Source of the DNA: a virus
Strand: one strand, 5' to 3'
Virus record (IMG/VR): IMGVR_UViG_3300017703_000567
Coordinates: 1-23,723 of that record
Length of the DNA: 23,723 nucleotides
In this document: piece by piece, positions 1-23,453 of the stretch
How the letters are laid out: every line of letters begins with the position of its first letter
Numbering within the stretch: position 1 is the first letter of the stretch
Notes under the pieces: generated by a model
Databases searched by the model: none
Seen by the model: only the letters and a program-made list of their open reading frames with translations
What the model was told of the DNA's origin: nothing
Position numbers and translations under genes: made by a program

Positions 1-278
1 AATCGGCCACCTGTAACTGGCTTCTCCATGATTATAATATAGCCTAATCCGTTTGGTCCATCGTAAGTGTGAACAGATACATCTTCTGTGATATCTCCCA
101 GAGCTATACCTTTTGTTTCCCATGAATCATGGTCAGATACTTTTGCAGTACTATCATCTCTGGTCTTTGCCCCTTGCCAATATGATTTACTTGCGGCCAA
201 CTCTTCAGATTGCTTAGTATCAATAGTAGTAACAAGCGAATCGAGTGCTGCCGATGTTTTAGGTTCTACTGGGAGCAT
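1..278 (-). CDS. Partial hypothetical protein, N-terminal 92 residues
   Basis: An open minus-strand frame starts at ATG 278 and runs off the left edge. It begins MLPVEPKTSAALDSLV and reads on through a polar region (residues about 20-55) to a more hydrophobic YIIIMEKPVTGG stretch near the edge. I do not recognise the family. It starts 11 nt after the stop of the 511-aa structural gene, so it is the next gene of the late operon and probably virion-related by position only. The start is the first ATG after that stop. It has no Shine-Dalgarno; an ATCCCC hexamer lies 6 nt upstream (285-290), a variant of the TTCCCC motif seen before other starts here. The true length is unknown. Confidence 0.7.
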   Translation of the reverse strand, partial: MLPVEPKTSAALDSLVTTIDTKQSEELAASKSYWQGAKTRDDSTAKVSDHDSWETKGIALGDITEDVSVHTYDGPNGLGYIIIMEKPVTGGR

Positions 279-289
279 AAATATGGGGA

Positions 290-1825
290 TTAAGATACGT
301 CTACAACTGCGACTGAAATCCATCCATCGACATCACCTCCTGTGATATCAACTTCAAGGTCTTTGTCTGTTGCTAGTTTCCATATAGGCATTGCGAAGTT
401 CCCTGAAGGGGATACTGCTGCACCTCCATACTGTGCGAACTCCATGATTCCAGATAGAGCTGTATCGTCTTCGTCTTGAAAGCTAACCGTTTGTCCATCT
501 GCATCACCACAAGTGAATGTGTATCCATATACCCATATCTGCTTGTTTGCGGCAGAAGAAGCCAGAACTTGGTTTGCACCAGTCGTTAGGTTTATGGCTA
601 CTTGTGTATATGAGTCTACCGATGGTCCTGTGGATGATTCTGGTCCATTGATAGAGTCGTTTGTGATACTCGTCACATCGACATCTCCAATGTCTACACC
701 TGAGTTAGCTGCCAGCTTACCAATCGCTGCGCTACCAGCGGGTAAAGAACCAACCACATCAACTTGTAATTCATTTCCAGACGATATTGAGTTATCTAAC
801 AAAGCGAGAGAAGCAGCAATTGCATCTAATACTGCATTATCAGTAGCACCAAGGTCAGCAGTAACAGTACCATCTATTGTTATTGAGTTACCACCATCGG
901 AGATATGCAAAGCACCATCTGTATCACAAGCCAAGGCTGCTGAATCATTAGCATTGACAGATTGTGTACCTGCAAATCCCATCATCATCACTCCTGAACC
1001 TGAACCCAGTGAGAACGCTGCATCATCTACAGAAACAATGTTGTCTATCAGTTGCAGGGCCGTAAGAGCTGAACCATCTACTTGCACAGCAAATGTACCT
1101 GCGTTGGTTACGTTTGCAGAGACAAGGTCTACTTGCATCTCACTACCAGAGATTGCATTGTCTAAAGTCTCCACAGCCGTCTTTATGGCTGTAGTGTCTG
1201 CAAGGATTGCATCTGAGTTAAAGTCCTGAGTCCAGAGCGCACCTTCAGCTGTACCTCTCATTCCAATCCAGTCTGCTTCTGCTGGTGTCACTGTTGTAAG
1301 TGCATCATCCCTTTCCATCAGTGTAGCCGTACCAACTATAGGGTTAGCTGTAGCTACATCCTCTGTGTACTCCGTTCCTCCACCTCCTCCAGAAACAATG
1401 TCTACCTGCATCTCACTACCGGATACTGCGCCCGCGATAGTGCCAAGGTTGGTATCCATTGCTGCTGTATCGGCAAGTATGGCTGTAATATTCGTGTCCA
1501 TATTGGCTGTATCAGCCAAAATAGCCGTTGTGTCGGATAAGATTGCATCACTATTAAAGTCTTGTGTCCATAATGCCCCTTCTGCTGTACCCCTTGCGCC
1601 AATCCAATCTCCCTCAGCAGGAGTAACAGACGTAAGAGCGTCATCACGCTCCATCATAAGCGTCGGACCAACTATTGTAGAAGGTGTAGCGGCGTCTTCA
1701 TTGTATTCAGTCGCGCCGGTAGAACCAGCTACTACGTTTACTTGTAATGCGTTGTTACTCGTATCCCAAACATCTTTGAGAACGAATCGCGCCAAGCTAT
1801 TTATATCGTTGGGGTTGGAAGCCAT
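290..1825 (-). CDS. Structural/surface protein with duplicated module (fibre or decoration-like)
   Basis: 511 aa, rich in Ala, Asp, Thr, Ser and Gly, with no enzyme motif. A module of about 58 residues occurs twice (residues 39-96 and 151-208). Both copies start TEY(N/T)ED and contain MERDDALT.VTPAE.DWIG.RGTAEGALWTQDFNSDAIL. Between and after them run short repeats of the type AILADTA.MDTN and LDN.ISGSEMQVD, the spacing expected of alternating trimeric coiled-coil and beta segments. The C-terminal about 100 residues (ANKQIWVYGYTFTC to the end) look like a compact beta domain. Proteins with this TEYTEDAA...ARGT...LWTQ pattern are familiar from phage structural regions, so a virion surface or fibre role is inferred. 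The gene follows the 1295-aa protein after 48 bp. A TATAAT box (1839-1844) and an overlapping TTCCCC lie just before the ATG. Confidence 0.7.
   Translation of the reverse strand: MASNPNDINSLARFVLKDVWDTSNNALQVNVVAGSTGATEYNEDAATPSTIVGPTLMMERDDALTSVTPAEGDWIGARGTAEGALWTQDFNSDAILSDTTAILADTANMDTNITAILADTAAMDTNLGTIAGAVSGSEMQVDIVSGGGGGTEYTEDVATANPIVGTATLMERDDALTTVTPAEADWIGMRGTAEGALWTQDFNSDAILADTTAIKTAVETLDNAISGSEMQVDLVSANVTNAGTFAVQVDGSALTALQLIDNIVSVDDAAFSLGSGSGVMMMGFAGTQSVNANDSAALACDTDGALHISDGGNSITIDGTVTADLGATDNAVLDAIAASLALLDNSISSGNELQVDVVGSLPAGSAAIGKLAANSGVDIGDVDVTSITNDSINGPESSTGPSVDSYTQVAINLTTGANQVLASSAANKQIWVYGYTFTCGDADGQTVSFQDEDDTALSGIMEFAQYGGAAVSPSGNFAMPIWKLATDKDLEVDITGGDVDGWISVAVVDVS
1202..1375 (-). 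repeat. Second copy of duplicated 58-residue module
   Basis: Residues 151-208 of the 511-aa protein repeat residues 39-96 (1538-1711) with few changes; both end in the identical stretch LWTQDFNSDAIL. The DNA differs mostly at third codon positions, so the duplication is old and kept at protein level. Confidence 0.8.
1538..1711 (-). repeat. First copy of duplicated 58-residue module
   Basis: Residues 39-96 of the 511-aa structural protein; partner of 1202-1375. The copies are separated by a stretch with the repeated unit AILADTA.MDTN. Confidence 0.8.
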
Positions 1826-1833
1826 AGTCTATT

Positions 1834-1844
1834 GGGGAATTATA
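1834..1844 (-). promoter_or_regulatory. Candidate internal promoter -10 plus TTCCCC start motif
   Basis: TATAAT (1844 to 1839) is followed 13 nt later by the ATG at 1825, so a transcript from it would have a leader of about 6-7 nt. I find no convincing -35 hexamer at 16-18 bp. The last T of the box begins a TTCCCC (1839-1834) that ends 8 nt before the ATG. The 48-bp gap is unusually long for this operon, which supports a regulatory role. Confidence 0.4.
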
Positions 1845-1873
1845 CAGGGGATTACTGTTTTACGATGCGCAAG

Positions 1874-4800
1874 CTAATTCGCAGGAGAAAATAAGGGAGT
1901 GTAATTGGCGTTATCCAAATCTCTGAAGAGACGAGTGGAACGGTTGAAGCTTTGTCTGTCTGGTAGTGCCTCTTTTCTCATATCAAATAACACCTTTTGG
2001 TTAGTGCGTCCATGTTGTACACCGTAACGTACTAGCAATTCTGTCAACTCATTTACAGATGATGGCTTATGCCCGAAGAGTTTGATCTTCGCTGCGGTGT
2101 TGATGTTGGTGAGGACCTGGCCCATCTCCTTTGCTTTCTTTTCCGGGGTAAGCGCCTGGAACTGTGGAGTATCAAATACCATCTCATACATTGCTTTTGT
2201 ATCTGCGCCAACCATGTGCTGATATTCAGATATTTCTCGACCTTTAAGCTTCCGGTTTACGGGACCGTCCGGACCACCAGAAATCTTAATAGACCGTTGT
2301 ACGACACGAGGCATGTGCGCTGCGTCGCCAGTCACTTCATAGAGGCTCATAAGCTCTTCCATGCCTGGGTTCTTTTTGTACTCGGATACCATAGCTGGAT
2401 TAATGAATACATCAACGAGGAAGAGTCCGAGGTTTTTGTCTGCGGAGCTGAAAGTCTTTATCTCTTTGCCAAGAGTAGATGACTTTTTGGGTAGCCCACT
2501 AGACATGTACGGAATCTTTGCCTTCATTCTATTAAGTCCAGTCCGCAATGGTGACGGGTCATACGTCTCTCTGCGTAGATGATTTCCTAATTGGTTTACC
2601 TGGCTCATCATCGTAGGTACAAAGGAGGACGCAGCGTTCTCAGAGAGTGTGACCGCAACAGATTCCAACATACCATCAGCATCACGACGGAAAGCTTGTG
2701 ATAGTCCGCGTAGCAGAGAGTTTCCTTCCAGCGAGCCAAGCCCTTGGGCGGTACCCCTTAAGAGATTTTCATATACGGCTGTGACTTCTCCGCCACCGTC
2801 ATACATATCAGCACCCATAGCTAGTGAAACACCTGTTGGCTGTAGCCAGTCATACGTCATCATCTCATCTCCGTCTACGTGCTCATTAGACATCTCTTTA
2901 TTGAAGCCGCTCATCACGTACCTCTTAAGCGCGTTAAGGTTTATTTGGTAGTCTTTGTACCCAGCGCTCTGCTGCGCGGCTCGTACATTCCTATTCTCAT
3001 CGAGCTGACCAGTGATGACACCAGCTTCCCTAAGCTTCATACCAATGAACATTAATCCAGAACCAACAGTCGCACGAGAGAAAGATTCTATCACCTCCTT
3101 TTGGTCTATAGTCCTTTTAAATAGAGGCTTGGACATCTGCCACAAGGTGTTACCATATCCTGCTGGAGAGTAACGAATAGCCCTATCCAACAGATTACCT
3201 GGTACTTTAGGGAACTTGAGAATGAAGTCACCCGGACCAAATTTCAAACCAAGGTTTAATACGTTTTTCTTGAGAGCCACAAAAGCATTAGAGATCGCTG
3301 TATCATCCTGAAGAGTTTTGAACAGAGACTCAGCGTAGGCCGTCTCGATCATCTCTTGCGTAGGGACACCATCGAATTTCTTACCAGCGATTATCGCTTG
3401 GTTATCCATCGAGTTCTTAAAGGACGCCTTGAATGCAGCTCTATCGAACCCTTTCAATCCAACACCAACAGCTATCTCTCCACCCCTTGCAGTCTTCTCA
3501 ATAGCTCTTACGAAACCACTAGCAATAGAGTTATTTATCTTGTTACTACCGAATACACCGGGCTTAAATGTACGTCCTTTCTGCATACCCAAAAACTTAG
3601 ACTTCCCCTTCGCAGTAGGAGTGAGGTCGATACCGTGGTATGCCTCTTCTGAACCTTCAACGAATCCTTCCCAGAAAGCTTTCCACCTCTTACGCATCTG
3701 TATAGGAGGACGCTTTGTCTTCACCACATCTTTACCAAGTAGTCTCTGTACTGGATTGACCACACCTCTTTCAGTTAAGAACCCAAGTCTGTCACTCATG
3801 TTCTCCATCTTACCGAGGATGCCGTTACCAATAATGTTACGACCAAGAGTCTTGAAGTTACCAAGCATCATCAAAGCGTGTGTTGAACCAACCATATCCC
3901 ACACCTCTGTTGGTACCATCTCAGCCAAGTCCCTACGGATGATAGCCATAGCAACTTCGCGTGGCCTACCTGTAAGGTTCTGAGCTTTCTTTGCTCTGTC
4001 TAGGAACATCTTCTCTTGTGCCTTTGTAAGATTGATACGAGTCTTGATACCACGCTTTTTCAGAGCGTCGTTGGTATTACGTACAGTACGCTGTGCCTCC
4101 ATCAGTACTCCCGCAGGAGACAACTTATCCCACATAGATGCGGCTTGAATCGCACGACCCTGCTTAGTAAGAGAGTTGCTGACATTCAACGTAATGTTGG
4201 CTGCCTCCTGCAAGCTTGCATCATCACCCAACTTATTGAGCTTTTGTACCACTACATCAGCCGCCGCTACATCCACCTCATCCACAGTACGAGTGCTATC
4301 CAACAGCCTTGTACGGACTGAATCATAGTCTTTCGCCAACTGGCCCCGCACAGTCTTCGCAGTCTCTTTATTAGATATACTGTTGAATAGGGCGTCGTCT
4401 TTCTTATCAAACAGAACTTTTTGCATAGGCTTCTTAGCGTCTGCTGGCTGTTCCAAAGTTCTCTTGAATAGCTTTGAAGTTTTCTTTCCTGGAATATCAC
4501 TGCTACCACCCTTCGGAGTTGGACCTCCTTTCAAGTGAGCCATACGAGCCTCTTTGAAGAGTGTGTTGTATGTTACTTCCGTTCCATCAATCTCTAAATG
4601 TTTCATGGCGTCGAATAGTTCTCCGTTGGTTGGTGGCCGTCCCATGGTTTCTGTGAGGGTCTTAGCCATGCTCTCCATCTGGCTTTGTGCAATCTCCGGG
4701 CGTACCTCTTTCAACGCTTTAAGACTCTTCAATCCAAACGCTCCTGTCTCAAAAATTCCACCAAGGCTCATGCCCCAGATAAACTCTTTGACTCCATACT

Positions 4801-5761: not shown

Positions 5762-5766
5762 AAGGT

Positions 5767-6894
5767 TTATTCGTCGTCGTCGGAATTAAATTTCGTTGGT
5801 GGTACTTGCTGTGGGATTCCTCCGCCATCGTCGTATGGTGGGTAGAATTGCTTGGCGGACTGTAGACCAGCGTAAGGGTCTCCATAGATTGGGTCTATGT
5901 CCCCTCTGCTCTGTCGCAAATTGGGGTCTTCAAGCGCGTTACGGTTGGTAATATTTGGTCGTGTCTGCATACGGAGCCAGAACTCTGCCTTGTCCTTATC
6001 TGGCAATGACCCAAGAATAGTCTCTACTGGAATCTTACTTGATCGAGCTATATCTACTGCGGCATCAAGCTGCTCTTTTGTTGATGAGGCAATACCCTTC
6101 GCATCAGCTTTCCTGCGTAAGCGAGCAAGCTCTTCTTTAGCTTTCTCTACTGTAAGGTTCATCATCGCTTTCGTCTCTCTGTCAGCACCGATGCCATCAA
6201 GCATATTACCCAAATTAGTAAGCATACTCACACGGTTTGTGAACGCGGTCTCCTTAGCACGGATGTCTCCAATCTCTTCGGATACCCGACCCTCAATCTT
6301 TAGTTTACGTTTGCTACGTATCTCTAACAAATTATCCACAGTATCGCCAAACATCTGTAGGCGCCTCGCTACCACAGCCCTGCGCTGTGAAGGTGGTAAG
6401 CTTCGTAGTTTTTGGTTTAGTAATGTTTTAGAGACAAGGCCCTGGCGTGTCACCTCCTTAATACGTGTATCAATATCAGTGTACGGGTCCATGTCCGCAA
6501 TAATCTTATTACGGATGATGTTTGTGTCCGCAGCCTCTAGCTCACCCGCGCGAGCATATTGATCTTGGAATCCCTTAAGAATATCAAGGCGTGCATTTGC
6601 TACTGGGTCATTAATACCACTCAAATCTTGCTGCTCTCCAGGCTTCGTAGAAACGATAGGCACTGGAGCATCTAATCCTCTTAATGTAGATGAGCCAATA
6701 ATTCCAGCTTTTGGAGTAGTGTCTTTAGTCGGACCACCGCGCCGTACATTAAAAGCTTTAGATCGCGCAGCAGCTAAGAAGTTTTTGCTACCCGCTTGAG
6801 TCGCAATTTCTTTTGCATCCAGGAAGTCTGATGCGGCGCTCTCCATCGAGAAGCCGAATGTGTTGCCGGTGGAGGGTTGGGTTGAATTAGGCAT
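5767..6894 (-). CDS. Hypothetical helical protein, probable internal virion component (375 aa)
   Basis: Predominantly helical, charged protein with Ala/Lys/Arg/Glu-rich stretches (residues about 100-300) and a disordered acidic end (FNSDDDE). The N-terminus (residues 1-35, TFGFSMESAASDFLDAKEIA) is followed by a basic linker. No family recognised. It lies between the 629-aa Arg-rich protein (2 nt upstream) and the 1295-aa protein (5 nt downstream). Such tight spacing suggests translational coupling and a shared role, most simply as an ejected or internal protein. A TTCCCG sits 12 nt before the ATG, inside the upstream coding sequence, so it may be fortuitous. Confidence 0.6.
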   Translation of the reverse strand: MPNSTQPSTGNTFGFSMESAASDFLDAKEIATQAGSKNFLAAARSKAFNVRRGGPTKDTTPKAGIIGSSTLRGLDAPVPIVSTKPGEQQDLSGINDPVANARLDILKGFQDQYARAGELEAADTNIIRNKIIADMDPYTDIDTRIKEVTRQGLVSKTLLNQKLRSLPPSQRRAVVARRLQMFGDTVDNLLEIRSKRKLKIEGRVSEEIGDIRAKETAFTNRVSMLTNLGNMLDGIGADRETKAMMNLTVEKAKEELARLRRKADAKGIASSTKEQLDAAVDIARSSKIPVETILGSLPDKDKAEFWLRMQTRPNITNRNALEDPNLRQSRGDIDPIYGDPYAGLQSAKQFYPPYDDGGGIPQQVPPTKFNSDDDE

Positions 6895-6896
6895 AA

Positions 6897-8786
6897 TTAT
6901 CTTTTGCGGGAATTGGCAGCTATACGTGCGGCACGTCTCTTTGCTACTGCTGATTGTAGCCTACTAACTGATTGCCTCGTCGGTGTCGTATGCTTAGTAT
7001 TACGAACGGTGGGGGTCGATACGCGCCTTACTTGAATTTGCGCTTTCGGTGGAGCCGCTTTAATGTTGTAAGTGGTCGTACTTTTACGGATATTGGGGGT
7101 CGTACTTCTTCGCACAGATGATGAACGTGAGCTAGTTGGCGGAGCTGTTGGGGTGGACCGATATGTTGGCAAGCGTTCCTCTATTGGGATTTTTGCCAAA
7201 CGATCTGCTCTTCGTTGAGCCACGTTATTTTGAAGGTTGGTAAGATTTTCTTCAGCAGTACCACCTCTAGCTCCTTGAGAATCACGCGGCTTTTTCCCCT
7301 CACTCTCATCTGTTTGGTCTTCCGTAAAGTCTGGAATAGATGCTTGGTCACCCTGGTTGAGATAGTTGAATCGTTCCAGGTCTCCAAAGATGTCTGATTT
7401 CTCATCTTCTAAATCCCCAAGACGATCATAGTCCAATTTATTACGTGCCCTATCAAACGTGAGGTCGATACCCTGGTCATTAAGTTCTCCAAATCTACGT
7501 GTAAATTCATTACTCAATGAAGCGTCTTCCTCCAGCCTACCCAGGCCACGGTTGCGAGCTTGGCTTAACCTAAAGCCACGACGGTTGGATGCACCCACAC
7601 CACGCTCATCAAGACCTCGTGATGTGAATTCAGTTCCTATATCTTCGTATGCCCTACCCGTCTCTAGGTTTATATCCTGCTCACCTCGGCGTAGCCGAAG
7701 GTCTGTTAAACGTCTTTGTTGCTCTCGTGTAAGATCGCTCCTACGCTGCTGAACATCCTCAGCCCTATCAAGGAACCTACCCTCACTATCATAGTATGGG
7801 TCTACCTCAGCAGCCGCTTGGTCATCTATTTCACCAAGGGCCTGGTCGCGTTCCTCTTGTGACATGTTTTGAATCTGCTGCAAGAAATTAATGTAATCAC
7901 GGAATGCTTGCTTCTGCTCATCATCACCAGACTCAATAAGGGCCTGGCTTTTCTTCTCTCTCTCTGCGATGTTAGCACGCCCCTGCTCTGTCTCTGGGTC
8001 AAAGCCAGAACTCTTTATCCTGTCTTCGCGACGCTGCCTTCTTTCATCAACAGCAGCTTGTAATGCAGTCTTTTGAGACGCTCGCTGATTTCGGACTCTC
8101 TGGTGCTCCTGCCTTTGTGTGACTTCTTTCGCCTCTTTTTCTACAGTCTTAAATACAGAATCAATTTTACTTGATCGTGCGTTAGTCATTGATCGTGTCA
8201 TCAACCTCTCTTGGTATGCAGCTTCACGCGCTACCTTAGAGCCACTGGTTGTACCGAATTGCTGTTGTGCCTGTTTCCTAGCCTTCTCTCTTATTTGCGC
8301 CCCACTCATAAAGAGTTCTGGATTGCTCTCTCGCACTCTGCGTGTTGCCTCATCCCTCAGGCTTCTGCCATTTATTTCTTTCGCAGCAGGAATGACGGGG
8401 TAAGTATGTCTCATTATTCGGCCACCTGGACCAGAGATGTAAACCCACTTAGCTTTCACTGGTCCCTGTACAGGTTTAAATGTAGATGCCTTACTTATGT
8501 TCCTGGTTGATAATCTCTTATTAGAAGAGTCAAGAGCCGCGCGACGTACTGTATCTGGAGTACGACTACCATCCTCATCACTCCGTCTACCAGCGATTTC
8601 TACCTTATCTTTCTTGTGCTTGTATACAGGAGTGGTTTGCTTTTTCTTTGTACGAGTAGATGAATTACGAGTGCTTTCAGTCGCACGACTGCGAAGAGTG
8701 CGTCGTGAAGGTCTGCTACCAACTGATGTGCGCCTAACGTAATTTAGGAGCCTTTGTTCGCCTGTAATGTAAGAAGAGTTATTCAT
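6897..8786 (-). CDS. Arg-rich internal virion protein candidate (629 aa)
   Basis: Strikingly basic at both ends: residues 1-70 and the last about 110 residues are full of Arg, Lys, Ser and Thr (ends AKRRAARIAANSRKR). The middle is a charged helical region. Around residues 385-480, units such as RGLDERGVGASNRRG and repeated LxxxRxxG patterns recall helical segments of phage internal or tail-associated proteins. I chose ATG 8786 (MNNSSYITGEQ). It lies 1 nt after the stop of the adhesin gene in a TAATATG junction, identical to the one before the portal. The upstream extension to 8951 only reads through the adhesin gene in another frame. The basic tails suggest binding to packaged DNA; this is inference. 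Confidence 0.6.
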   Translation of the reverse strand: MNNSSYITGEQRLLNYVRRTSVGSRPSRRTLRSRATESTRNSSTRTKKKQTTPVYKHKKDKVEIAGRRSDEDGSRTPDTVRRAALDSSNKRLSTRNISKASTFKPVQGPVKAKWVYISGPGGRIMRHTYPVIPAAKEINGRSLRDEATRRVRESNPELFMSGAQIREKARKQAQQQFGTTSGSKVAREAAYQERLMTRSMTNARSSKIDSVFKTVEKEAKEVTQRQEHQRVRNQRASQKTALQAAVDERRQRREDRIKSSGFDPETEQGRANIAEREKKSQALIESGDDEQKQAFRDYINFLQQIQNMSQEERDQALGEIDDQAAAEVDPYYDSEGRFLDRAEDVQQRRSDLTREQQRRLTDLRLRRGEQDINLETGRAYEDIGTEFTSRGLDERGVGASNRRGFRLSQARNRGLGRLEEDASLSNEFTRRFGELNDQGIDLTFDRARNKLDYDRLGDLEDEKSDIFGDLERFNYLNQGDQASIPDFTEDQTDESEGKKPRDSQGARGGTAEENLTNLQNNVAQRRADRLAKIPIEERLPTYRSTPTAPPTSSRSSSVRRSTTPNIRKSTTTYNIKAAPPKAQIQVRRVSTPTVRNTKHTTPTRQSVSRLQSAVAKRRAARIAANSRKR

Positions 8787-8787
8787 A

Positions 8788-9954
8788 TTAGTCGACAATA
8801 AAGAATTCATGGAAAGCTCCGGCGTCTCCGTTTGTACCGTCTTGACCAGCAAGACCATCATTGTTATCACCGTCACCTCCTGCGCCACCACTACCAGCAG
8901 TGCCGCCAGAAACATCGGTAGTCCATTCAAATACATCTTTTCGTGAAGCAATTAAAGCTGCAACACCACCCGCGCCACCTGCGCCTCCAGCTCCACCACC
9001 TCCACTATGAGCGCTTCCTTCTCCTGGTCCTCCTGCCGCTCCATTACCACCGTTTCCACCAACAGCATTAACGGCTCCGTTACCAGAAACAATAGCTGCG
9101 ACAATCAAGATGTTTCCTCCTGGGGAACCCCCTCCACCTCCACCTCCTCCATCTCCCCCATCTCCACCACCTCCACCTCCGAATCCCTGTCCAGATGAAC
9201 CACCACCACCACCACCGGCTCCTGCTGAGCCAAAGAATGGCTGAGGCACAAGTGCTGCGGGGTTTGTCCTCCAGCGTGCTACATGATTCAAATTATCAAA
9301 GCTACCAACTGATGCTATAGGTGCTGTTACAGAGCCTCCAGCACCAGCAGCGCCTCCAGGTGCACCAGCACCCTCACCTCCAGATGCTCCTCCAGCACCT
9401 CCAGCACCTCCAGCATCTCCCGCTACACCTACGGAATTTATTGCTGAACCACCACCACCACCACCACTACCAGCAGTACTAAAGGCATCGTTTCCACCTG
9501 CTCCCGCCCCACCTGCTCCAGATGCCACTGACCCATTGAGATAGTTTTGAGATAATGCTGTCCCAGCCGCTCCAGCAGTGAGACCACTTCCATTACCCCC
9601 TCTGGAGCCAGCCCTACTTATAGTACCGTAATGACTGAATTTAGTACGCACAGCGATAGAGAATCCATCTGGGTCTACAGTGACACCAGCTTCAATAACC
9701 AAACTGTCATAGAACATATTTTTGGTCAGCGTCGTATTGTCAGTTATAACAGTGTCGCCATCCGCCGCGTTACCGAACTCTGAAATAATCGCATTGAGAC
9801 GCGCAAGTGTTATCCACTGTGTACCATCCCATTGCTCCCACTCACCCGTATGTGGGTTGAGCCAGCGTGTAAATTGGCTAGGGCTATTGGGCCTATCTGG
9901 TTGGATAAGTTCTGAGCCGGAGCCAGCCGAAGTTAGTGGGGGTCGTATAAGCAT
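8788..9954 (-). CDS. Glycine-rich receptor-binding adhesin / tail fibre tip candidate
   Basis: 388 aa. Residues about 10-60 form a unique N-terminal part with WLNPHTGEWEQWDGTQW, likely the virion-anchoring part. Residues about 115-370 are dominated by long Gly-rich runs (many GG, GGG and GGGGGG tracts) broken by a few hydrophobic inserts, for example residues about 205-235 and ILIVAAIVSGNGAVNAVGG. Blocks of this kind form polyglycine-II helix bundles in known phage adhesins such as that of Salmonella phage S16, where the inserts carry specificity. The gene lies directly after the gp10-like nozzle gene; stop and start overlap in TAATG. The DNA is correspondingly C-rich on the plus strand (ccacctcc repeats). 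A host-receptor role is inferred. Confidence 0.65.
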   Translation of the reverse strand: MLIRPPLTSAGSGSELIQPDRPNSPSQFTRWLNPHTGEWEQWDGTQWITLARLNAIISEFGNAADGDTVITDNTTLTKNMFYDSLVIEAGVTVDPDGFSIAVRTKFSHYGTISRAGSRGGNGSGLTAGAAGTALSQNYLNGSVASGAGGAGAGGNDAFSTAGSGGGGGGSAINSVGVAGDAGGAGGAGGASGGEGAGAPGGAAGAGGSVTAPIASVGSFDNLNHVARWRTNPAALVPQPFFGSAGAGGGGGGSSGQGFGGGGGGDGGDGGGGGGGGSPGGNILIVAAIVSGNGAVNAVGGNGGNGAAGGPGEGSAHSGGGGAGGAGGAGGVAALIASRKDVFEWTTDVSGGTAGSGGAGGDGDNNDGLAGQDGTNGDAGAFHEFFIVD

Positions 9955-12352: not shown

Positions 12353-12358
12353 GGGGAA
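12353..12358 (-). promoter_or_regulatory. TTCCCC start motif before adaptor gene
   Basis: TTCCCC ends 9 nt before the TTG start at 12343 and fills most of the 15-bp intergenic gap. It supports the TTG start, which has no Shine-Dalgarno. Confidence 0.5.
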
Positions 12359-13680: not shown

Positions 13681-13686
13681 GGGGAA
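13681..13686 (-). promoter_or_regulatory. TTCCCC start motif before 169-aa gene
   Basis: TTCCCC ends 10 nt before ATG 13670, inside the 30-bp gap after the decoration-like gene. No Shine-Dalgarno is present. Confidence 0.5.
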
Positions 13687-13700: not shown

Positions 13701-14300
13701 TTACGCTACGGTGTAGGCAGGAATGTAGTGGGCTACGCCACCAATATCAATTTTCAAGAATTCATCAGCAGCCACAGTTTGTGGTGCCTTCATTGTTGTA
13801 TCGGTAGTACCTGTTGCCTTAAGAACGGAGTCTGCAACGCCAAGAGCGGACATATCAATACCGAGTACACCTGTACCTGTAATCGACATTGCTGCACCAG
13901 CAGTAGAGTCATTTTGTAGACTCAAACAAACGGCACCTGTAGCTGCGGTGTTATCGTTAGTAATTTGCACAAGTACACGAGTACCAGTGTCAGAAGAGTC
14001 ACTAACAAAACTAGCAAGACCTCCTGTAGTAAGGGCATCTCCATCATTCATTTGGAGACCCATACCAGTAGTGATTGTATCAACAGTAGCGTCGATAAAT
14101 ACACCAGTTGCCACCTCTGGATGAACGTGGAAAACCACGACATCAGAGTTATCTTTGATTGCAAACGGTGACGTCGTTTGCGTTTCGTTGAGACGAATAG
14201 AAATCGCACGAGAATCGGCATCGAGTACTAGGTCGATGGCCTCAACGCTCGCGTCTGTAATATTCGTCTGTTCCTGTAGTCTTAGGTATTCTTTAGACAT
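13701..14300 (-). CDS. Capsid decoration / head-fibre-like protein (199 aa)
   Basis: Beta-rich, Thr, Asp and Gly-rich protein without charged coils. Sections such as RAISIRLNETQTTSPFAIKDNSDVVVFHVHPE, GTRVLVQITNDNTAATGAVCLSLQNDSTAGAAMSITGTG and the end EFLKIDIGGVAHYIPAYTVA suggest repeated strands of a trimeric beta-prism or beta-helix, as in virion decoration or head-fibre proteins. It lies two genes after the major capsid gene, the usual place for such proteins. The start is preceded by TTCCAA at 10 nt and only 5 bp separate it from the previous stop. Family not certain. Confidence 0.6.
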   Translation of the reverse strand: MSKEYLRLQEQTNITDASVEAIDLVLDADSRAISIRLNETQTTSPFAIKDNSDVVVFHVHPEVATGVFIDATVDTITTGMGLQMNDGDALTTGGLASFVSDSSDTGTRVLVQITNDNTAATGAVCLSLQNDSTAGAAMSITGTGVLGIDMSALGVADSVLKATGTTDTTMKAPQTVAADEFLKIDIGGVAHYIPAYTVA

Positions 14301-14305: not shown

Positions 14306-14584
14306 TTAAGTTGGAAGAGAAGAAAAAGATAGGCGTCTTTGGGGACCGGACAGTATATTTCCACGCTTCATCTGGTTATGGACGAGTGGTTCTAGTTCCT
14401 CGGATAGCTCATTTTGGATACGACGGTCTGTCTCCTCTTTGTGAGATTCTTGTCGTGCCTCCATAGTATCGAGGTGGGCGTCATTACGACGCTTAGCCTC
14501 TTGGAACTCTTCGCGTTCCTTTGGAGAACGGAAGTTCTTGTGAACACCTTTCCACACCTCTGATGAAATATCGGAGTTATTCAT
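14306..14584 (-). CDS. Small hydrophilic protein (92 aa)
   Basis: Charged helical protein (KEREEFQEAKRRNDAHLDTMEARQESHKEETDRRIQNELSEELEP), no Cys, no membrane segment. Not recognised. It starts 2 nt after the major capsid stop (TAATTATG junction), consistent with translational coupling, and ends 5 bp before the decoration-like gene. Codon phase and position support it as real. A head-assembly accessory is a guess from position only. Confidence 0.55.
   Translation of the reverse strand: MNNSDISSEVWKGVHKNFRSPKEREEFQEAKRRNDAHLDTMEARQESHKEETDRRIQNELSEELEPLVHNQMKRGNILSGPQRRLSFSSLPT
14311..14316 (-). promoter_or_regulatory. TTCCAA start motif before decoration-like gene
   Basis: TTCCAA ends 10 nt before ATG 14300. 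It lies within the 3' end of the preceding gene. Confidence 0.45.
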
Positions 14585-15903: not shown

Positions 15904-15909
15904 TTGGAA
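15904..15909 (-). promoter_or_regulatory. TTCCAA start motif before major capsid gene
   Basis: TTCCAA ends 9 nt before ATG 15894 in the 40-bp scaffold-capsid gap. The rest of that leader is pyrimidine-rich (CTTCTCTT next to the ATG). As the most highly expressed virion gene would need strong initiation, the absence of any AGGAG is notable. Confidence 0.5.
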
Positions 15910-16737: not shown

Positions 16738-16743
16738 TTGGAA
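16738..16743 (-). promoter_or_regulatory. TTCCAA start motif before scaffold gene
   Basis: TTCCAA ends 8 nt before ATG 16729 and supports that start. No Shine-Dalgarno is present. Confidence 0.5.
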
Positions 16744-16753
16744 TGTGATATAG

Positions 16754-16783
16754 CCCACGTTTTTTAAACGGGGTAGCTTCCCC
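16754..16783 (-). promoter_or_regulatory. Overlapping, mutually exclusive hairpins in scaffold leader
   Basis: On the minus strand GGGGAAGCTACCCC (16783-16770) can form a short G/C stem. The same CCCC can instead start a second hairpin, CCCCGTTT-AAA-AAACG with a bulged T and GGG (16773-16754). Only one can form at a time. No U-run follows, so this is not an ordinary terminator. It lies between the three-way-junction RNA and the scaffold start. Confidence 0.35.
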
Positions 16784-16796
16784 TATTGGCAATGTA

Positions 16797-16884: not shown

Positions 16885-16921
16885 CAAGCAAATCCAGTGT
16901 TTTAAAAGAGCGCATTTATTC

Positions 16922-18763: not shown

Positions 18764-18764
18764 A

Positions 18765-19034
18765 TTAAATTACGGGGTCGCGTTTAAAAATCTTGTCCAA
18801 AGCTTGTGATGTAAGAGTCCCGTCTGGAGCAGTCTCACCGGTTGGCTCTACTTTAACTGGCTTTGGTGCTTTCCGTGGCTTCTGTGTAAGTCCTCGGAAT
18901 TCTGACAACGTGGTTGCTGCATTCAATTTCGACACCTTCTCCGATAAGCTAGACAAAAAATAGAACGCAGCTATGAGCACTGCCGAGATGCACACAGTGA
19001 GTACGCTAAGGAAAATCGCAAGTCCATTAGTCAT
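18765..19034 (-). CDS. Small single-pass membrane protein (89 aa), first gene of late operon
   Basis: Residues 4-30 (GLAIFLSVLTVCISAVLIAAFYFLSSL) form a clear hydrophobic segment. After it come a short heptad-like helix (SEKVSKLNAATTLSEF) and a basic, Pro-rich soluble tail (QKPRKAPKPVKVEP) ending DKIFKRDPVI. It may sit in the inner membrane with the tail in the cytoplasm. Holin-like or spanin-like roles are possible, but one TM segment and the position before the portal do not decide. ATG 19034 lies 8 nt after a TATAAT box, so the late mRNA probably starts at or next to this codon. Confidence 0.6.
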   Translation of the reverse strand: MTNGLAIFLSVLTVCISAVLIAAFYFLSSLSEKVSKLNAATTLSEFRGLTQKPRKAPKPVKVEPTGETAPDGTLTSQALDKIFKRDPVI

Positions 19035-19042
19035 GTTGATAA

Positions 19043-19070
19043 ATTATACACACTGAACACATGTTGTCCG
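19043..19070 (-). promoter_or_regulatory. Leaderless promoter for late operon (minus strand)
   Basis: -35 CGGACA (19070-19065), 16-bp spacer, -10 TATAAT (19048-19043), then 8 nt to ATG 19034. The predicted start point is at or within two bases of the start codon. Its -35 overlaps the -35 of the divergent plus-strand promoter, so the two should compete or be switched together. Confidence 0.55.
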
Positions 19071-19092
19071 ACGCAACCCCTTGCGCTATAAT
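19064..19092 (+). promoter_or_regulatory. Leaderless promoter for XRE regulator (plus strand)
   Basis: -35 TTGTCC (19064-19069), exactly 17-bp spacer, -10 TATAAT (19087-19092), then 7 nt to ATG 19100. Transcription should begin at about the base before the ATG. The spacer holds a perfect CGCAA-CCCC-TTGCG inverted repeat. Confidence 0.6.
19072..19085. promoter_or_regulatory. Candidate operator, CGCAA-N4-TTGCG
   Basis: Perfect 5-bp inverted repeat between the -35 and -10 of the regulator promoter, a classic repressor site position. The same half-sites occur at the 23190 promoter. The nearby XRE-type gene is the natural candidate to bind it. Confidence 0.5.
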
Positions 19093-19099
19093 ATTGTAC

Positions 19100-19327
19100 A
19101 TGCCCCACTTACTCCTGCGGGAATACCGCGAACGCAAAGGTATGAGTCAGATTAGATTATCTGTTGTATCGAGAGTGGAGCGACGGACAATCCAATACAT
19201 TGAAAACGGCACAACCAAAAATCCATCACGTCTCACAATGGTAAAACTGTGCACAGCACTTGAAACCAGCCCCATTGATATTTTCTTCCCCGAATTCACA
19301 TGCCAGAAGAATCCCCAAAACCAGTAG
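19100..19327 (+). CDS. XRE/Cro-type HTH transcriptional regulator (75 aa)
   Basis: A short protein consisting almost only of a Cro/XRE helix-turn-helix domain: LREYRERKGMSQIRLSVVSRVERRTIQYIENGTTKNPSRLTMVKLCTALETSPIDIFF. The recognition region is SVVSRVERRTIQYIE, and the family end P.DIFFP is intact. A short polar tail follows. The leaderless start at ATG 19100 (7 nt after the -10) is chosen over 19061, which would lie upstream of the promoter box. It overlaps the glycosyltransferase gene by 28 bp. It probably controls its own promoter, the divergent late promoter and perhaps the 23190 promoter through CGCAA/TTGCG sites; this is inferred. Confidence 0.8.
   Translation: MPHLLLREYRERKGMSQIRLSVVSRVERRTIQYIENGTTKNPSRLTMVKLCTALETSPIDIFFPEFTCQKNPQNQ
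19286..19291 (+). promoter_or_regulatory. TTCCCC start motif before glycosyltransferase gene
   Basis: TTCCCC ends 8 nt before ATG 19300, inside the end of the XRE gene. This is one of the two plus-strand examples, so the motif follows gene sense rather than genome strand. Confidence 0.5.
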
Positions 19328-20025
19328 TCACACTTGGTATACCTACCGGAGAATACTTCACTGTATGCAGTGATTTCCATAAATGCCTTACTCAGCTTAT
19401 TTGCTACAGCTATGAGAATAATGTTGTCGAAAAGATCAACCTCATATATGCACAATCACCCAACACAGCAGCCAACCGAAACACCATCCTCAATCTGCAT
19501 GAAGGGGCTTATATGGTGCAAATAGACGCAGATATGACGTTCCCACCTAACGCCCTTGAGCAACTAATTGATACAGCAGAGAAGTTCCCCAATGCAGTCA
19601 TAACAGGATTTGGATGCGTGGGCAACTCCCCAAACTTCCCAGCTATCTACAAGTGGGACGGCGATAAGATGGAAGCGCACCCCACCGCAGATTGGCCAGA
19701 TGAGCCATTTGATGTCGGTGTGTGTGGCAGCTTTGGCTTCCTGGTCCCAGACAACATTGTAAAGGTTTTAGGAAACCAGGCATTCAACCACATCATTGTG
19801 GAGAATAATGAAACTAAAAAGACCAAGGAAATAGAGCACGACTTTGCATTTTGTATCCGGGCACAAGAGAATGGATTCAGAATAGTGTGTAATCCCGACA
19901 TTGAATTTGGACACATACGGCCATACCCCATTGGTAAAAGTGACTGGCTCGCACAAAAGGAAATTGTTCTCGCTTCAGAAAAGGAAGCGAAAAAAGGCGA
20001 TAGCAAAATTACCGTAAAGGAATAA
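19300..20025 (+). CDS. GT-A fold glycosyltransferase
   Basis: 241 aa. The N-terminus (VVTLGIPTGEYF) is the usual nucleotide-binding strand, followed by INLIYAQSPNTAANRN. Residues 74-83 (QIDADMTFPP) hold the DXD-type metal/nucleotide-sugar motif D76-A-D78. VGVCGSFGFLVP and EHDFAFCIRAQENGFRIVCNPDIEFGHI (about 179-206) give the acceptor-side acidic motif and the C-terminal His. Family GT2-like, cytoplasmic. Sugar and target are unknown; modification of a virion protein, phage DNA base or host surface is possible. It lies between the XRE regulator (28-bp overlap) and terL (stop codon TAA directly followed by ATG), so it is co-expressed with packaging. The start is supported by TTCCCC 8 nt upstream. 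Confidence 0.8.
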   Translation: MPEESPKPVVTLGIPTGEYFTVCSDFHKCLTQLICYSYENNVVEKINLIYAQSPNTAANRNTILNLHEGAYMVQIDADMTFPPNALEQLIDTAEKFPNAVITGFGCVGNSPNFPAIYKWDGDKMEAHPTADWPDEPFDVGVCGSFGFLVPDNIVKVLGNQAFNHIIVENNETKKTKEIEHDFAFCIRAQENGFRIVCNPDIEFGHIRPYPIGKSDWLAQKEIVLASEKEAKKGDSKITVKE

Positions 20026-21654
20026 ATGATTTCCGAAAACGAAATAAGAGACCTCTCCCCAAAGGAGATAAAAGAGCTAGATAAGACACTCTTCAATCGA
20101 CACTGGAGGATGGATAATATCTACCATATCCAAACGAAAGACTCGCGTCTCATGCAGTTCAAATTGAACCCAGTCCAGCAGGTGGTAGACCAGCAGACAG
20201 AGGGGCACCAGCGCATCATGCAGCTAAAATCCAGGCAGGTTGGTATGAGTACATACTGGCTACTACGGGAATTGGATGATGTTATGTGGACTCCCCATAC
20301 TACATGTGCTGTTTTAGCGCATGACTTAGCCACATTAAACCTCTTGTTTGAAATCGTAAAACGTGCTTATGACAATATCCCAGAGATAGAATTGCCAAAT
20401 GGCCAGCGATGGGTGAAGCCGTTCGCTGACCGTGATACCACTCGTATGCTTAAGTTTAATGAGATGGATAGTAAAATCTACGTCGACTTGGAGGTGCGTG
20501 GTGGTACCATCCACCGTCTACATATATCTGAGTCTGCGTTCGTAAAGGATATGAACTTGGTATGGGCGGCCACGCAAGAGTCTGTTCCGGTAAAGGGAGG
20601 GCGTATTGTGGTGGAGACTACAGCGAATGGTAAGGGAAACTGGTTCAACCAAGAATGGGAAAAGGACCCATCGGTATGGAAGAAACTATTCTTCGCATGG
20701 TTCGACCATCCGGATAACTACATGGACGTTCCATTTAAAGGGAACCTCACAAGGTATTCCCAGGAGCATATAAAGAGAACTATCACCCCAGAAGAAACAA
20801 AAATGAAGATGGAGTATGAACTAAATTTGGGCCAGATAGCGTGGTATAGATTCAAGATGGACTCCTACCCAGATGGCGATAAGCACTTAATGAAACAAGA
20901 GAACCCGTCGAATCCGGAAGAGGCGTTTATCTACGCTGAGGGGAGGTTCTACCCAGAATTCTCTCGCACACTGCATGTGCTCCCTGACCACGAACCACCT
21001 CCAGGTGTGAACAAATTTGTTAGCCTCGACTATGGGTGGAGTAACCCGTCCTCTATTGGGCTATGGTATGTGGATTACGATGGAAACTGTATTAGATACA
21101 AAGAGGGGTACCACAGATATTGGCCAATCGAGGAGCAGTGTAAATGGCTTAAATCTCATGGATTCACCACTGTCGACTTTGGAGACCCATCCATCCACGC
21201 AAAAAACCAGCAACGCATGGGTAAGGTGGAGTCTCTTGCAGATGAATACAAACGATATGGGGTCCTATTAAAGAAAGCGAACAATGATAAAGGAGCTGGT
21301 TTTCCACGCATGCGTGACTACCTCAAGCTGCGGAACAAACACAAGAACCCGCTCACTGGAGTTAGCCCAGCACCTACACTTTACTTCTGTGAGGGGTGTA
21401 CAAATAGTATCCGTGAGATGGAGACTATCCGCTATGCGAAGCCGCCGGGGGCTGGTGCAATGAACCAGGAGGCAAAAGAAGACCACGAGAAAACAGAGAA
21501 GGTTTCTCACGCATGTGATGATATTCGATACTTCATTGTGTCGAGGCCGCGTACCCCGACAGAGGAAGTCGACATACCACCAAACACTCCACTTGACCGC
21601 ATGCAGAGACACAATATTGGTGGAGGGGCAAAGCCGGATACTACTGCGTACTAA
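20026..21654 (+). CDS. terL: Terminase large subunit
   Basis: 542 aa packaging motor. The ATPase half has the adenine-binding region near LNPVQQVVDQQ (47-57), a Walker A-like KSRQVGMST (68-76), a Walker B region RLHISESAF (164-172) in which SES replaces the common DE pair, and a motif III ETTANGKGNW (197-206). The nuclease half begins KFVSLDYGWSNPSSIGLW (330-347, catalytic Asp 335), then TVDFGDPSIHAKN (382-393) and HACDDIRYF near residue 500, the typical three acidic sites. It would cut concatemers and pump DNA through the portal at the head vertex. ATG follows the glycosyltransferase stop directly; AAAGGA 5 nt upstream is the only Shine-Dalgarno-like site I see. No small terminase gene is recognised in the window. 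Its 3' end overlaps the convergent 58-aa gene by 14 bp. Confidence 0.92.
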   Translation: MISENEIRDLSPKEIKELDKTLFNRHWRMDNIYHIQTKDSRLMQFKLNPVQQVVDQQTEGHQRIMQLKSRQVGMSTYWLLRELDDVMWTPHTTCAVLAHDLATLNLLFEIVKRAYDNIPEIELPNGQRWVKPFADRDTTRMLKFNEMDSKIYVDLEVRGGTIHRLHISESAFVKDMNLVWAATQESVPVKGGRIVVETTANGKGNWFNQEWEKDPSVWKKLFFAWFDHPDNYMDVPFKGNLTRYSQEHIKRTITPEETKMKMEYELNLGQIAWYRFKMDSYPDGDKHLMKQENPSNPEEAFIYAEGRFYPEFSRTLHVLPDHEPPPGVNKFVSLDYGWSNPSSIGLWYVDYDGNCIRYKEGYHRYWPIEEQCKWLKSHGFTTVDFGDPSIHAKNQQRMGKVESLADEYKRYGVLLKKANNDKGAGFPRMRDYLKLRNKHKNPLTGVSPAPTLYFCEGCTNSIREMETIRYAKPPGAGAMNQEAKEDHEKTEKVSHACDDIRYFIVSRPRTPTEEVDIPPNTPLDRMQRHNIGGGAKPDTTAY

Positions 21655-21817
21655 TCCTCCCGTGGATAACGTCTATATGTCGTAACCACATCTTCGCCTC
21701 TCTGTTAATTTCAGCGAATCTGGCTTGCATATCCTCCACCCTATCCGCTTCGCGTATTGTTTTTTGGTGAGCCTTATCATTCTGGAGTACTGCCTCTTTA
21801 TGTGCTTCGGCGTCCAT
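21641..21817 (-). CDS. Small charged helical protein (58 aa)
   Basis: MDAEAHKEAVLQNDKAHQKTIREADRVEDMQARFAEINREAKMWLRHIDVIHGRISTQ is one charged, probably coiled-coil helix. Not recognised. ATG 21817 is chosen because it overlaps the upstream gene by only 20 bp. An ATG at 21880 would add 21 residues and an 83-bp overlap. It converges on terL, overlapping its last 14 bp. It is the last of three minus-strand genes. A small-terminase role is conceivable for a short helical protein beside terL, but no DNA-binding motif is visible. Confidence 0.5.
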   Translation of the reverse strand: MDAEAHKEAVLQNDKAHQKTIREADRVEDMQARFAEINREAKMWLRHIDVIHGRISTQ

Positions 21818-22115
21818 TTCTTGATGGTGGAGTACGTGCGGGCTGTGTCTTACTTTGCTCAAATCTGTATACAGGCTCATCATTCTCTGCGGTAGCTTCT
21901 GCGGGAGCCAGAAGCGTGTCGTACAGCATCGACCATTGCTGCGCAGTGATAGCGTACCGTGTGTATGCGGTATCAATTTTGTCTATCAGCAAACCGACTT
22001 TTCCAGCATACTCTACCCCCGTATATGCTTTACGCGTCTCATGCACCATCATCATAATGCGAGTGAAAAATGCTGAGTCTCCCTCATGCGCCACCTCGAA
22101 AGTTTCATCTTCCAT
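21798..22115 (-). CDS. Hypothetical protein (105 aa), leaderless
   Basis: Helical N-terminal part (MEDETFEVAHEGDSAFFTRIMMMVHETRKAYTGVEYAGKVGLLIDKIDTAYTRYAITAQQWSMLYDTLL) and a disordered basic C-terminal tail (KTQPARTPPSRNGRRST). No family recognised. ATG 22115 is 7 nt after TATAAT (22128-22123), the same geometry as the other leaderless genes. The longer frame to 22199 would run through the terminator hairpin and is rejected. Confidence 0.6.
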   Translation of the reverse strand: MEDETFEVAHEGDSAFFTRIMMMVHETRKAYTGVEYAGKVGLLIDKIDTAYTRYAITAQQWSMLYDTLLAPAEATAENDEPVYRFEQSKTQPARTPPSRNGRRST

Positions 22116-22122
22116 ATACCTC

Positions 22123-22128
22123 ATTATA
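22123..22128 (-). promoter_or_regulatory. Leaderless promoter -10 for 105-aa gene
   Basis: TATAAT followed by exactly 7 nt and ATG 22115. No good -35 is visible at 16-18 bp, because that space is taken by the terminator stem. Activity may need an activator. Confidence 0.5.
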
Positions 22129-22139
22129 CTCCTAATCAG

Positions 22140-22169
22140 AAAAGAGGGGAGCGACTTCGCCCACCCTCT
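22140..22169 (-). terminator. Rho-independent terminator after ssDNA-binding-like gene
   Basis: On the minus strand AGAGGG pairs with CCCTCT and an inner GGGCG with CGCTC (one G-U), with a single bulged T and an AAGT loop, followed by TTT. It lies 23 bp after the stop at 22192 and directly before the next promoter. The U-run is short. The plus-strand side is followed by a longer T run (22179-22184), so it might work both ways. Confidence 0.65.
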
Positions 22170-22191
22170 GTTTCTGCCTTTTTTCAGCCAC

Positions 22192-23043
22192 CTACGCACT
22201 AAGTGACTTCAGCTTCTTATCGTAAGCTGCCTGTACAGTCTTGCTTTCCTCCTGCGTCAAATCCGCACCCTCCAAAACAAGGGACTTATAGTCTTCCAGT
22301 GACTTAACATCTTCTGCTTTCTCGATAGGAGCGAGCAGTTGTTCGACTTTGCTTGGGGCGCCCTCATCTGGCGTCGTCTCTTCTACAGCTTTTTCCTCTT
22401 TCTTCTCTTCAGTCTTTTCATCTTCGACTTTCGGCTTCTTAGTCCCCTTTTCAACTGGAGGCTTAGACTCCGCCTTACTCTCCCCCTCGCTGACCGATTT
22501 AATGAAAGCGCAGTTATCCGCTTTTTCTTCCTTGGTGGTGACATAGGTTTCTATATTAACATAGAACGCCTTTGTGGAAGGGTCTGGCTCACTGTGCATA
22601 ATGATGATAGTAGACACCATGCCCTTAAATTGGCTGGCATCGAACATTGTTTCTGTGAACTTCTCACCATCAACCACAACCTCTTTCTGGTTTCTGAATG
22701 GTGGCTTACCGGTGAGGGCTTTGCACATCTTATAGAAGCGTGCACCTTCTCCACCTTCTGGAGAATACCAGGGTGAGAATGCAATATGCTTTTTTGTCTC
22801 TTTACCGTTTGGACCATCTGATTCGTAAGTCTCTTCGGTCTCCCACCAGAGCTTGAATAGTTTGTCGCCTGGCTGGGCGTCCTTATAGTGCGACTCTTTC
22901 TCTTGTACCTTAGTACACACTGCTGGATAAGAACCCTCATCGAGTTTAGGGTATTCGATTTTCTTGCGAAGATTGCGAACAACACCTGCGTCTTGCGGTG
23001 TATCGTTGCCATCTTCACTCATTACTTCTGTGACATCAGTCAT
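22192..23043 (-). CDS. Probable ssDNA-binding / replication-associated protein (283 aa)
   Basis: Residues about 20-165 form a mixed alpha/beta domain: YPKLDEGSYPAVCTKVQEKESHYKDAQPGDKLFKLWWETEETY ... HIAFSPWYSPEGGEGARFYKMCKALTGKPP ... GEKFTETMFDASQFKGMVSTIIIMHSEP ... FYVNIETYV. This strand pattern with a small-molecule-like FSPW loop resembles OB-type ssDNA-binding proteins of phages. The following acidic, Lys/Glu/Pro-rich linker (residues about 185-235) recalls SSB tails, but here another helical domain (VEQLLAPIEKAEDVKSLEDYKSLVLEGADLTQEESKTVQAAYDKKLKSL) follows. ATG 23043 is chosen over 23169, which would reach across the divergent promoter region; TTCCCC lies 8 nt upstream. Family membership is inference. 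Confidence 0.5.
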   Translation of the reverse strand: MTDVTEVMSEDGNDTPQDAGVVRNLRKKIEYPKLDEGSYPAVCTKVQEKESHYKDAQPGDKLFKLWWETEETYESDGPNGKETKKHIAFSPWYSPEGGEGARFYKMCKALTGKPPFRNQKEVVVDGEKFTETMFDASQFKGMVSTIIIMHSEPDPSTKAFYVNIETYVTTKEEKADNCAFIKSVSEGESKAESKPPVEKGTKKPKVEDEKTEEKKEEKAVEETTPDEGAPSKVEQLLAPIEKAEDVKSLEDYKSLVLEGADLTQEESKTVQAAYDKKLKSLSA

Positions 23044-23051
23044 AGAAACGG

Positions 23052-23057
23052 GGGGAA
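23052..23057 (-). promoter_or_regulatory. TTCCCC start motif before ssDNA-binding-like gene
   Basis: TTCCCC (within TTCCCCCC) ends 8 nt before ATG 23043, in a non-coding leader. A weak -10 candidate TATTAT lies at 23064-23059, implying a leader of about 8-9 nt if used. Confidence 0.5.
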
Positions 23058-23082
23058 AATAATAAGTCTGGTGCTTCACTGT
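23054..23082 (+). other. Left part of 146-bp divergent intergenic region
   Basis: The region 23044-23189 separates the minus-strand ssDNA-binding-like gene from the plus-strand 23190 gene. This left part holds the TTCCCC leader and the weak TATTAT box for the minus gene. The right part holds the CGCAA/TTGCG cluster and the plus promoter described separately. No gene is seen here. Confidence 0.4.
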
Positions 23083-23123
23083 TTGCACGCGACTGACACA
23101 CTGTACATTTGTATATGTATGAA

Positions 23124-23151
23124 CGCAATAGCAATTTGCGACAAGCGCAAA
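23124..23151. promoter_or_regulatory. Candidate operator cluster of CGCAA/TTGCG half-sites
   Basis: Three half-sites follow each other: CGCAA (23124-23128), TTGCG (23136-23140) and CGCAA (23146-23150). The last two extend to a 6-bp inverted repeat, TTTGCG-N5-CGCAAA (23135-23151). The same half-sites form the inverted repeat at 19072-19085, so one regulator may bind both regions. Confidence 0.5.
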
Positions 23152-23153
23152 AC

Positions 23154-23182
23154 TTTGCAAGCGAAACAAAGTGCGCTATAGT
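23154..23182 (+). promoter_or_regulatory. Leaderless promoter for 87-aa gene
   Basis: -10 TATAGT (23177-23182) is followed by 7 nt and ATG 23190. A -35 candidate is TTTGCA (23154-23159, 17-bp spacer) or TTGCAA (16 bp). The bases around the -10 (TGCGCTATA) match the 19087 promoter. Confidence 0.5.
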
Positions 23183-23189
23183 GTCGCAC

Positions 23190-23453
23190 ATGCCGGACAG
23201 CAATGGTAACAGTTCATCGGGTTCATCTCTACAAGTGGGCACGCAAGGGCTGTCCGGTTTTTGCGTGTCCACTTGTGAGGATGGCGACAGACCAGTAACC
23301 ATTGAGTCCATGCAAATATGCAAGAAGGAATCAAATGGTGAACACATTCCAATGTTCCGTGAACCAAACCCCATAGCAAAAGGATGGGAATGGAATGTCT
23401 GTAAACTTTGTAGAAAAAACTTCCCCGTAAAACCCTATGGCAAGAAAGCGTAA
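23190..23453 (+). CDS. Small Cys-containing protein (87 aa), possible zinc-binding
   Basis: The N-terminal 20 residues are Ser/Gly/Asn-rich and disordered. Cysteines lie at 25, 29, 44, 71 and 74 (FCVSTC and VCKLC), so a small zinc ribbon or knuckle using a CX3C and a CX2C pair is possible. The C-terminus is basic (RKNFPVKPYGKKA). Not recognised. ATG 23190 is chosen over 23109 because it lies 7 nt after TATAGT and 23109 is upstream of the promoter. It overlaps the primase-like gene by 17 bp, suggesting coupling and perhaps a replication or early regulatory role. Confidence 0.6.
   Translation: MPDSNGNSSSGSSLQVGTQGLSGFCVSTCEDGDRPVTIESMQICKKESNGEHIPMFREPNPIAKGWEWNVCKLCRKNFPVKPYGKKA
23421..23426 (+). 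promoter_or_regulatory. TTCCCC start motif before primase-like gene
   Basis: TTCCCC ends 10 nt before ATG 23437, inside the end of the preceding coding region. Second plus-strand example of the motif. Confidence 0.45.

Follow-up and report, generated by a model that had tools for sequence, protein, structure and literature searches.

A pyrimidine-rich hexamer as a probable non-Shine-Dalgarno ribosome-binding signal, shared by a marine phage and its likely host lineage, the Candidatus Peribacteria

The initiation of translation without a Shine-Dalgarno (SD) sequence is known from the Bacteroidota, in which the leaders are A-rich or Kozak-like and the anti-SD is sequestered by bS21-bS18-bS6 (PMC6847099, PMC9976891). 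C-rich ribosome-binding sites have also been selected in vitro with Escherichia coli ribosomes, and C-rich leaders have been noted in some phages and hosts (Barendt 2012, PMC3310771). A survey of 20,648 16S tails reported no case in which a variant anti-SD matched a variant SD with perfect complementarity, three AAAA motifs being disregarded (PMC6107228), and Candidatus Peribacter riflensis has been listed as “SD-scarce, lacking CCUCC” (PMC10783764). The passages of this last source consulted here share the loss of CCUCC with the present results, and present no replacement signal, no covariation in a 3' hairpin, and no phage. The open-licence papers searched gave no account of a signal taking the place of the SD in this lineage.

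The window analysed here is the whole 23,723-nucleotide stretch of the IMG/VR record IMGVR_UViG_3300017703_000567, from an orphan marine phage, for which an initial annotation had proposed that a TTCCCC/TTCCAA hexamer replaces the SD at many starts. Exact matching recovered all of the listed copies, 8–10 nt before the starts named, together with two weaker variants, as follows (starts are given with their strand):

1834-1839, minus strand: TTCCCC, exact match, 8 nt before the start at 1825-, which was called without reference to the motif
12353-12358, minus strand: TTCCCC, 9 nt before the TTG start at 12343- (adaptor-like gene), directly after the stop of the upstream gene
13681-13686, minus strand: TTCCCC, exact match, 10 nt before the start at 13670-
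14311-14316, minus strand: TTCCAA, exact match, 10 nt before the start at 14300-
15904-15909, minus strand: TTCCAA, 9 nt before the start at 15894- (major head protein, phrog_14242)
16738-16743, minus strand: TTCCAA, 8 nt before the ambiguous start at 16729-
19286-19291, plus strand: TTCCCC, 8 nt before the start at 19300+ (glycosyltransferase), within the upstream HTH ORF
23052-23057, minus strand: TTCCCC, exact match, 8 nt before the start at 23043-
23421-23426, plus strand: TTCCCC, 10 nt before the start at 23437+ (the first segment of a split primase region)
285-290, minus strand: ATCCCC, weak variant, 6 nt before the start at 278-
6907-6912, minus strand: TTCCCG, weak variant, 12 nt before the start at 6894-

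The start at 16729- is ambiguous in that its frame is open to 16834 and motif-blind scoring favours 16822. The two remaining sense-strand copies of TTCCCC in the window are found at 9122-, as previously reported, and at 19585+, rather than at 19594+, and the copies antisense to genes are found at 3603+, 7294+, 12028+, and 16778+. The window as a whole contains no marked excess of the hexamer (12 copies, with 9.5 expected), whose non-random feature is the position of the sense-strand copies, not their abundance. A 684-codon ORF of the window (6897-8951, minus strand) overlaps the 3' part of a glycine-rich ORF (8788-9954, minus strand) by up to 164 nt, and has many start candidates with similar scores, which makes its start call ambiguous.

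The window was extended on both sides by near-identical, overlapping IMG/VR contigs, which added 21.3 kb of unseen sequence. The gene order across these contigs closes on itself, which indicates a circularly permuted phage genome of approximately 45 kb. This genome encodes TerL, a P22-type portal, a capsid, GroEL/GroES, an integrase, a DNA methyltransferase, and the split primase region, with the integrase and the methyltransferase being named from their own sequence rather than through a family search. The interval 11523-13421 of contig L009 encodes GroEL (538 aa) and GroES (92 aa), directly 3' of a LexA-like HTH gene. Two further clear cases of the motif lie outside the window, at the groES start (TTCCCCCTACACCAG-ATG), where it falls inside the 3' end of the lexA-like ORF, and at the ORF at 13772+ of L009 (CTTCCCCCCTTACATT-ATG).

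The association with start codons was evaluated using 50 starts (22 in the window and 28 in the unseen sequence) called computationally by a codon-usage score alone, without the motif, with the 310 in-frame ATGs located inside these genes (177 and 133, respectively) as the comparison set, and the motif being counted between -21 and -5. TTCCCC precedes nine of the 50 starts, with 0.14 expected, and none of the internal ATGs. The shorter TTCC is found at 17 starts (34%; 3.2 expected) and at 14 internal ATGs (4.5%), and CCCC at 14 starts (28%; 1.8 expected) and five internal ATGs (1.6%). In the window alone, TTCCCC is present at six of 22 starts and at none of 177 internal ATGs (p 9e-7), and TTCC at eight of 22 and six of 177. 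The count proposed as a check on the motif gave a similar result in the unseen 21.3 kb, which carries TTCCCC at three of 28 starts and none of 133 internal ATGs, and TTCC at nine of 28 and eight of 133 (p 4e-4). The end of TTCC lies 9–12 nt from the ATG at 15 sites.

The SD tetramers GGAG, AGGA, and GAGG are not enriched at the 50 phage starts, with GGAG being found at one and GAGG at none, as against 9.4% and 7.1% of the internal ATGs, which is not the pattern of a GGAGG-type SD. An A-rich or TAAAA leader motif is absent from the top enriched k-mers at these starts. The proposed replacement of the SD holds for about a third of the starts, as counted by the hexamer core TTCC, or somewhat more when AACCCC, ATCCCC, and ACCCC are included.

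The leaders are pyrimidine-rich and G-poor throughout the bacterial class described below, and composition or chance, with no specific signal, would be one explanation of the motif. This is very unlikely in view of the contrast between starts and internal ATGs (p 2e-14 for the hexamer, a value uncorrected for the testing of 4096 hexamers) and of the excess of TTCC over mononucleotide shuffles in the hosts. A phage promoter or regulator site, such as the late-promoter -10 suggested initially, is also improbable. TATAAT directly precedes TTCCCC at 1825- and is weakly enriched at the phage starts (three starts), and -10-like boxes lie near the starts of leaderless-looking host genes, but the spacing of the motif is set relative to the start codon, and the motif occurs within operons, as directly after the upstream stop in the case of 12343-, and inside upstream ORFs, such as the lexA-like ORF before groES and the HTH ORF before 19300+. 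Its carriers also span different functional classes, and host housekeeping genes share the motif, including in their tuf leaders. Some of the motif-bearing starts are operon-internal, and these cannot all be leaderless.

The motif behaves as a signal of the ribosome-binding type, following gene sense on both strands with tight spacing, as was initially read from the sequence, and the same arrangement recurs at the tuf and groES/groEL genes of a bacterial lineage. Its fixed spacing, sense orientation on both strands, and operation within operons are all reminiscent of the classical SD/anti-SD system, although the motif is pyrimidine-rich, lies at a slightly greater distance from the start, and lacks a CCUCC partner. 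A C-rich tract upstream from the AUG is also found in the sites of Barendt (2012), where it promotes initiation. Those sites are mostly synthetic and perform poorly in E. coli cells, whereas the present sequences carry a defined motif at a fixed spacing, in a phage and in an SD-less lineage.

An identical pipeline was applied to approximately 60 TerL-related viral contigs as a control. GGAG/AGGA was found in nearly all of them, and TAAAA/AATAA, a signal of the Bacteroidota kind, in L023 and L024, the two contigs closest by TerL. The TTCC signal was found in none. The recovery of these known signals indicates that the pipeline works, and that the TTCC motif is peculiar to this phage among the contigs tested. 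Scans of viral contigs with TerL, the capsid, GroEL, the portal, a Cas4-like protein, and a structural protein, used singly, returned near-identical copies, with the sole exception of L313, a remote relative with a 31% Cas4-like match, whose contig uses the SD (AGGAG).

When 84,980 species genomes were scanned for TTCCCC-N7-12 in front of the conserved start of tuf, only 10 loci were recovered. Eight of these (G006-G013) belong to one order of ultra-small bacteria, the Candidatus Peribacteria/Peregrinibacteria (CPR), and are all contained in the list of 74 genomes of this order (p about 1e-23, an approximate value, as the two genome collections differ). One of the eight is a Peribacteraceae MAG labelled ETNP, taken as a marine oxygen-minimum zone. 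The other two loci are from brine Bacteroidota MAGs (L107 and L110; Rhodothermaceae and a relative), which are unrelated to the Peribacteria. The shared signal and the plausible habitat identify the Peribacteria as the probable host lineage of the phage.

Other approaches to the host were less informative. The phage GroEL is 41–44% identical to those of the Peribacteria and approximately 41% to others, which is not decisive, and tetranucleotide similarity does not discriminate hosts. A TerL search of the genome contigs returned no match, and no tRNA fragment of an att site was recovered in the tRNA and Rfam scans. In the 74 genomes of the order, no prophage was found, and TerL had a single 33% match (L283, on G160:C21). 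This phage-like contig was rejected as a link to the host, given that it has SD-like leaders and belongs to a 2.1 Mb MAG, in which it is probably a binning contaminant. One Peribacteria genome encodes a second, divergent GroEL-like gene (G123:C27; 34% to the phage protein), while the others searched have one GroEL.

The 16S rRNA of the Peribacteria has mostly lost CCUCC from its tail (GAACACUUCCUUACCAGGGAA). Type A genomes end in ...TATCCGTAGGAGAACCTGCGGATG-GAACACTTCCTTACCAGGGAA, and type B genomes in ...GAACATCTCCTTACCAGGGAG, with the sequence diverging right after GGGA(A/G) in both types. The core is CUUCC or UUUCC in type A and UCUCC in most type B genomes, and only G084 retains CCUCC. Throughout the class, the old anti-SD forms the 5' arm of a hairpin at the 3' terminus, the arms of which covary. 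This hairpin is folded by 20 of 21 tails, and when the arms were re-paired between species, the observed stability was never reached in 1000 trials. Cores of CCUCC, CUUCC, CCGCC, CCUCU, and ACCCC are found across the class (L112-L117, L119, L186-L211, and L178-L182). In the sequences compared, the anti-SD drifts class-wide with compensatory changes in the hairpin. The bin G020 contains two 16S genes (L197 and L211) with different 3' tails, TTACCTCC and TCACCTCC. In two other class members (L278 in G058 and L279 in G086), the EF-Tu frames contain 15 and 12 in-frame TGA codons, and the 16S tails read TCTCC and CCTCT, respectively; in these bacteria, TGA is evidently decoded as an amino acid.

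The tuf leaders of Peribacteria with type A or B tails mostly contain TTTTCCC[CAT] or TTTTCCAA, 8–12 nt before the ATG, with only a weak tract in the type A genome G095, and the motif is absent from the tuf leaders of other orders of the class (G017, G020, G024, G033, G050, G094, and others). The groES/groEL leaders of the Peribacteria carry TTCCCC, TTTCCAA, AACCCC, and ATCCCC, which is the repertoire of the phage. In 14 type A genomes, TTCC occurs 80 times in the leaders of the S10 operons, as against 46.8 after these leaders are shuffled, with CTCCC at expectation, and in the operon-internal genes of sampled type A genomes, TTCC occurs 46 times, as against 23. TTCCCC is far weaker overall in the host genomes than in the phage. 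Many host starts have TATACT/TACAAT boxes, which suggests leaderless mRNAs.

The 16S sequences also bear on how the motif might be read. In canonical 16S rRNA, the GGGGAA of helix 45 is perfectly complementary to UUCCCC, and the C-rich leaders that work in a reconstituted E. coli system were proposed to pair with the 16S (PMC3310771). Pairing with this segment and the adjoining UUGGA had been one initial suggestion. In the Peribacteria, however, helix 45 reads GGAGAA (linker GAUGGAAC), with half of the segment in a stem, which does not fit pairing with UUCCCC and contradicts this suggestion if these bacteria are the host. In addition, GGGGAA is also conserved where the SD is used and the motif is not, and the tail reads AUGGAA where UUGGA was proposed, which, by the geometry of the SD, would be on the side of the anti-SD opposite to that required by a gap of 9–12 nt. 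Given this, the helix 45 explanation is hardly tenable.

The comparison with candidate-host 16S ends, which does not support either of these partners, did reveal that the conserved end of the tail carries a GGGAA, complementary to UUCCC, in every type A genome. A rewritten SD system may be envisaged in the Peribacteria and the phage, in which CCUCC was lost, GGGA(A/G) at the 16S 3' end became the new anti-SD, and the mRNAs carry (U/C)UCCC. Such a natural orthogonal pair, with UUCCC pairing with GGGAA at the extreme 3' end and displacing the UUCC hairpin arm, is a possible explanation, albeit a rather unlikely one. The tail end is the only GGGAA site common to the five type A 16S genes compared, the sequence diverges directly after it, and type A favours TTCC over CTCC, while type B (GGGAG) shows both. 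A continuous helix with tail nucleotides 17–21 would, however, be expected to need a gap of about 18 nt, if the geometry of the SD is taken as a guide, rather than the 8–10 nt observed, and the sixth base of the motif prefers C, where AGGGAA would want U. The duplex energies with the tail are near the shuffle level, the type A mRNAs fit the type B tail equally well (the A/B swap test being non-significant), and TTCCC is also found in type B tuf leaders. The GGGAA may also be part of a processed hairpin found in the precursor only.

The hexamer is probably a host-type non-SD ribosome-binding signal, which the phage shares with its likely host lineage, the Candidatus Peribacteria (CPR/Peregrinibacteria). 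Of the readings offered initially, a host- or phage-specific enhancer is the best supported, given that the motif is shared with the tuf and groES/groEL starts of the Peribacteria. The signal would have the consensus UUCCMM, with AACCCC and AUCCCC also being used, and UUCC would lie about 9–12 nt from the start codon. With the CCUCC core gone from most of the lineage, and its place taken by the 5' arm of the covarying hairpin, signals of the GGAGG type would serve no purpose, and many starts would be marked by a pyrimidine-rich tag in their stead. The motif presumably acts in translation, and its reader would be a ribosome-bound component, most likely a bS1-like protein binding the C/U tract, or else the 16S 3' tail, but not helix 45. 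The bS1-like binding is at least as likely as pairing with GGGAA, although a spacing this tight resembles that of an SD more than that of an S1 site. S1-domain proteins are present in all of the genomes searched, with multi-S1-domain frames of approximately 440–520 codons in most of those tested, while the search for bS21 returned weak, uninterpretable matches in half of the genomes. The likeness to the Bacteroidota is found in the unused SD, the start-proximal signal, and the unavailable anti-SD, whereas the signal of the phage and the Peribacteria is C/U-rich (UUCCMM) and about 9–12 nt away, rather than A-rich, and in most of the lineage CCUCC has been mutated, not simply hidden.

The translation signal alone assigns an orphan marine phage to a probable host, and exposes a bacterial lineage in which an evolving 3' hairpin has taken the place of the textbook anti-SD and the starts carry a C/U motif. 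The choice of the start codon in bacteria that lack the SD becomes testable with defined sequences, and start-site motifs are suggested as host fingerprints for the phages of uncultured bacteria.
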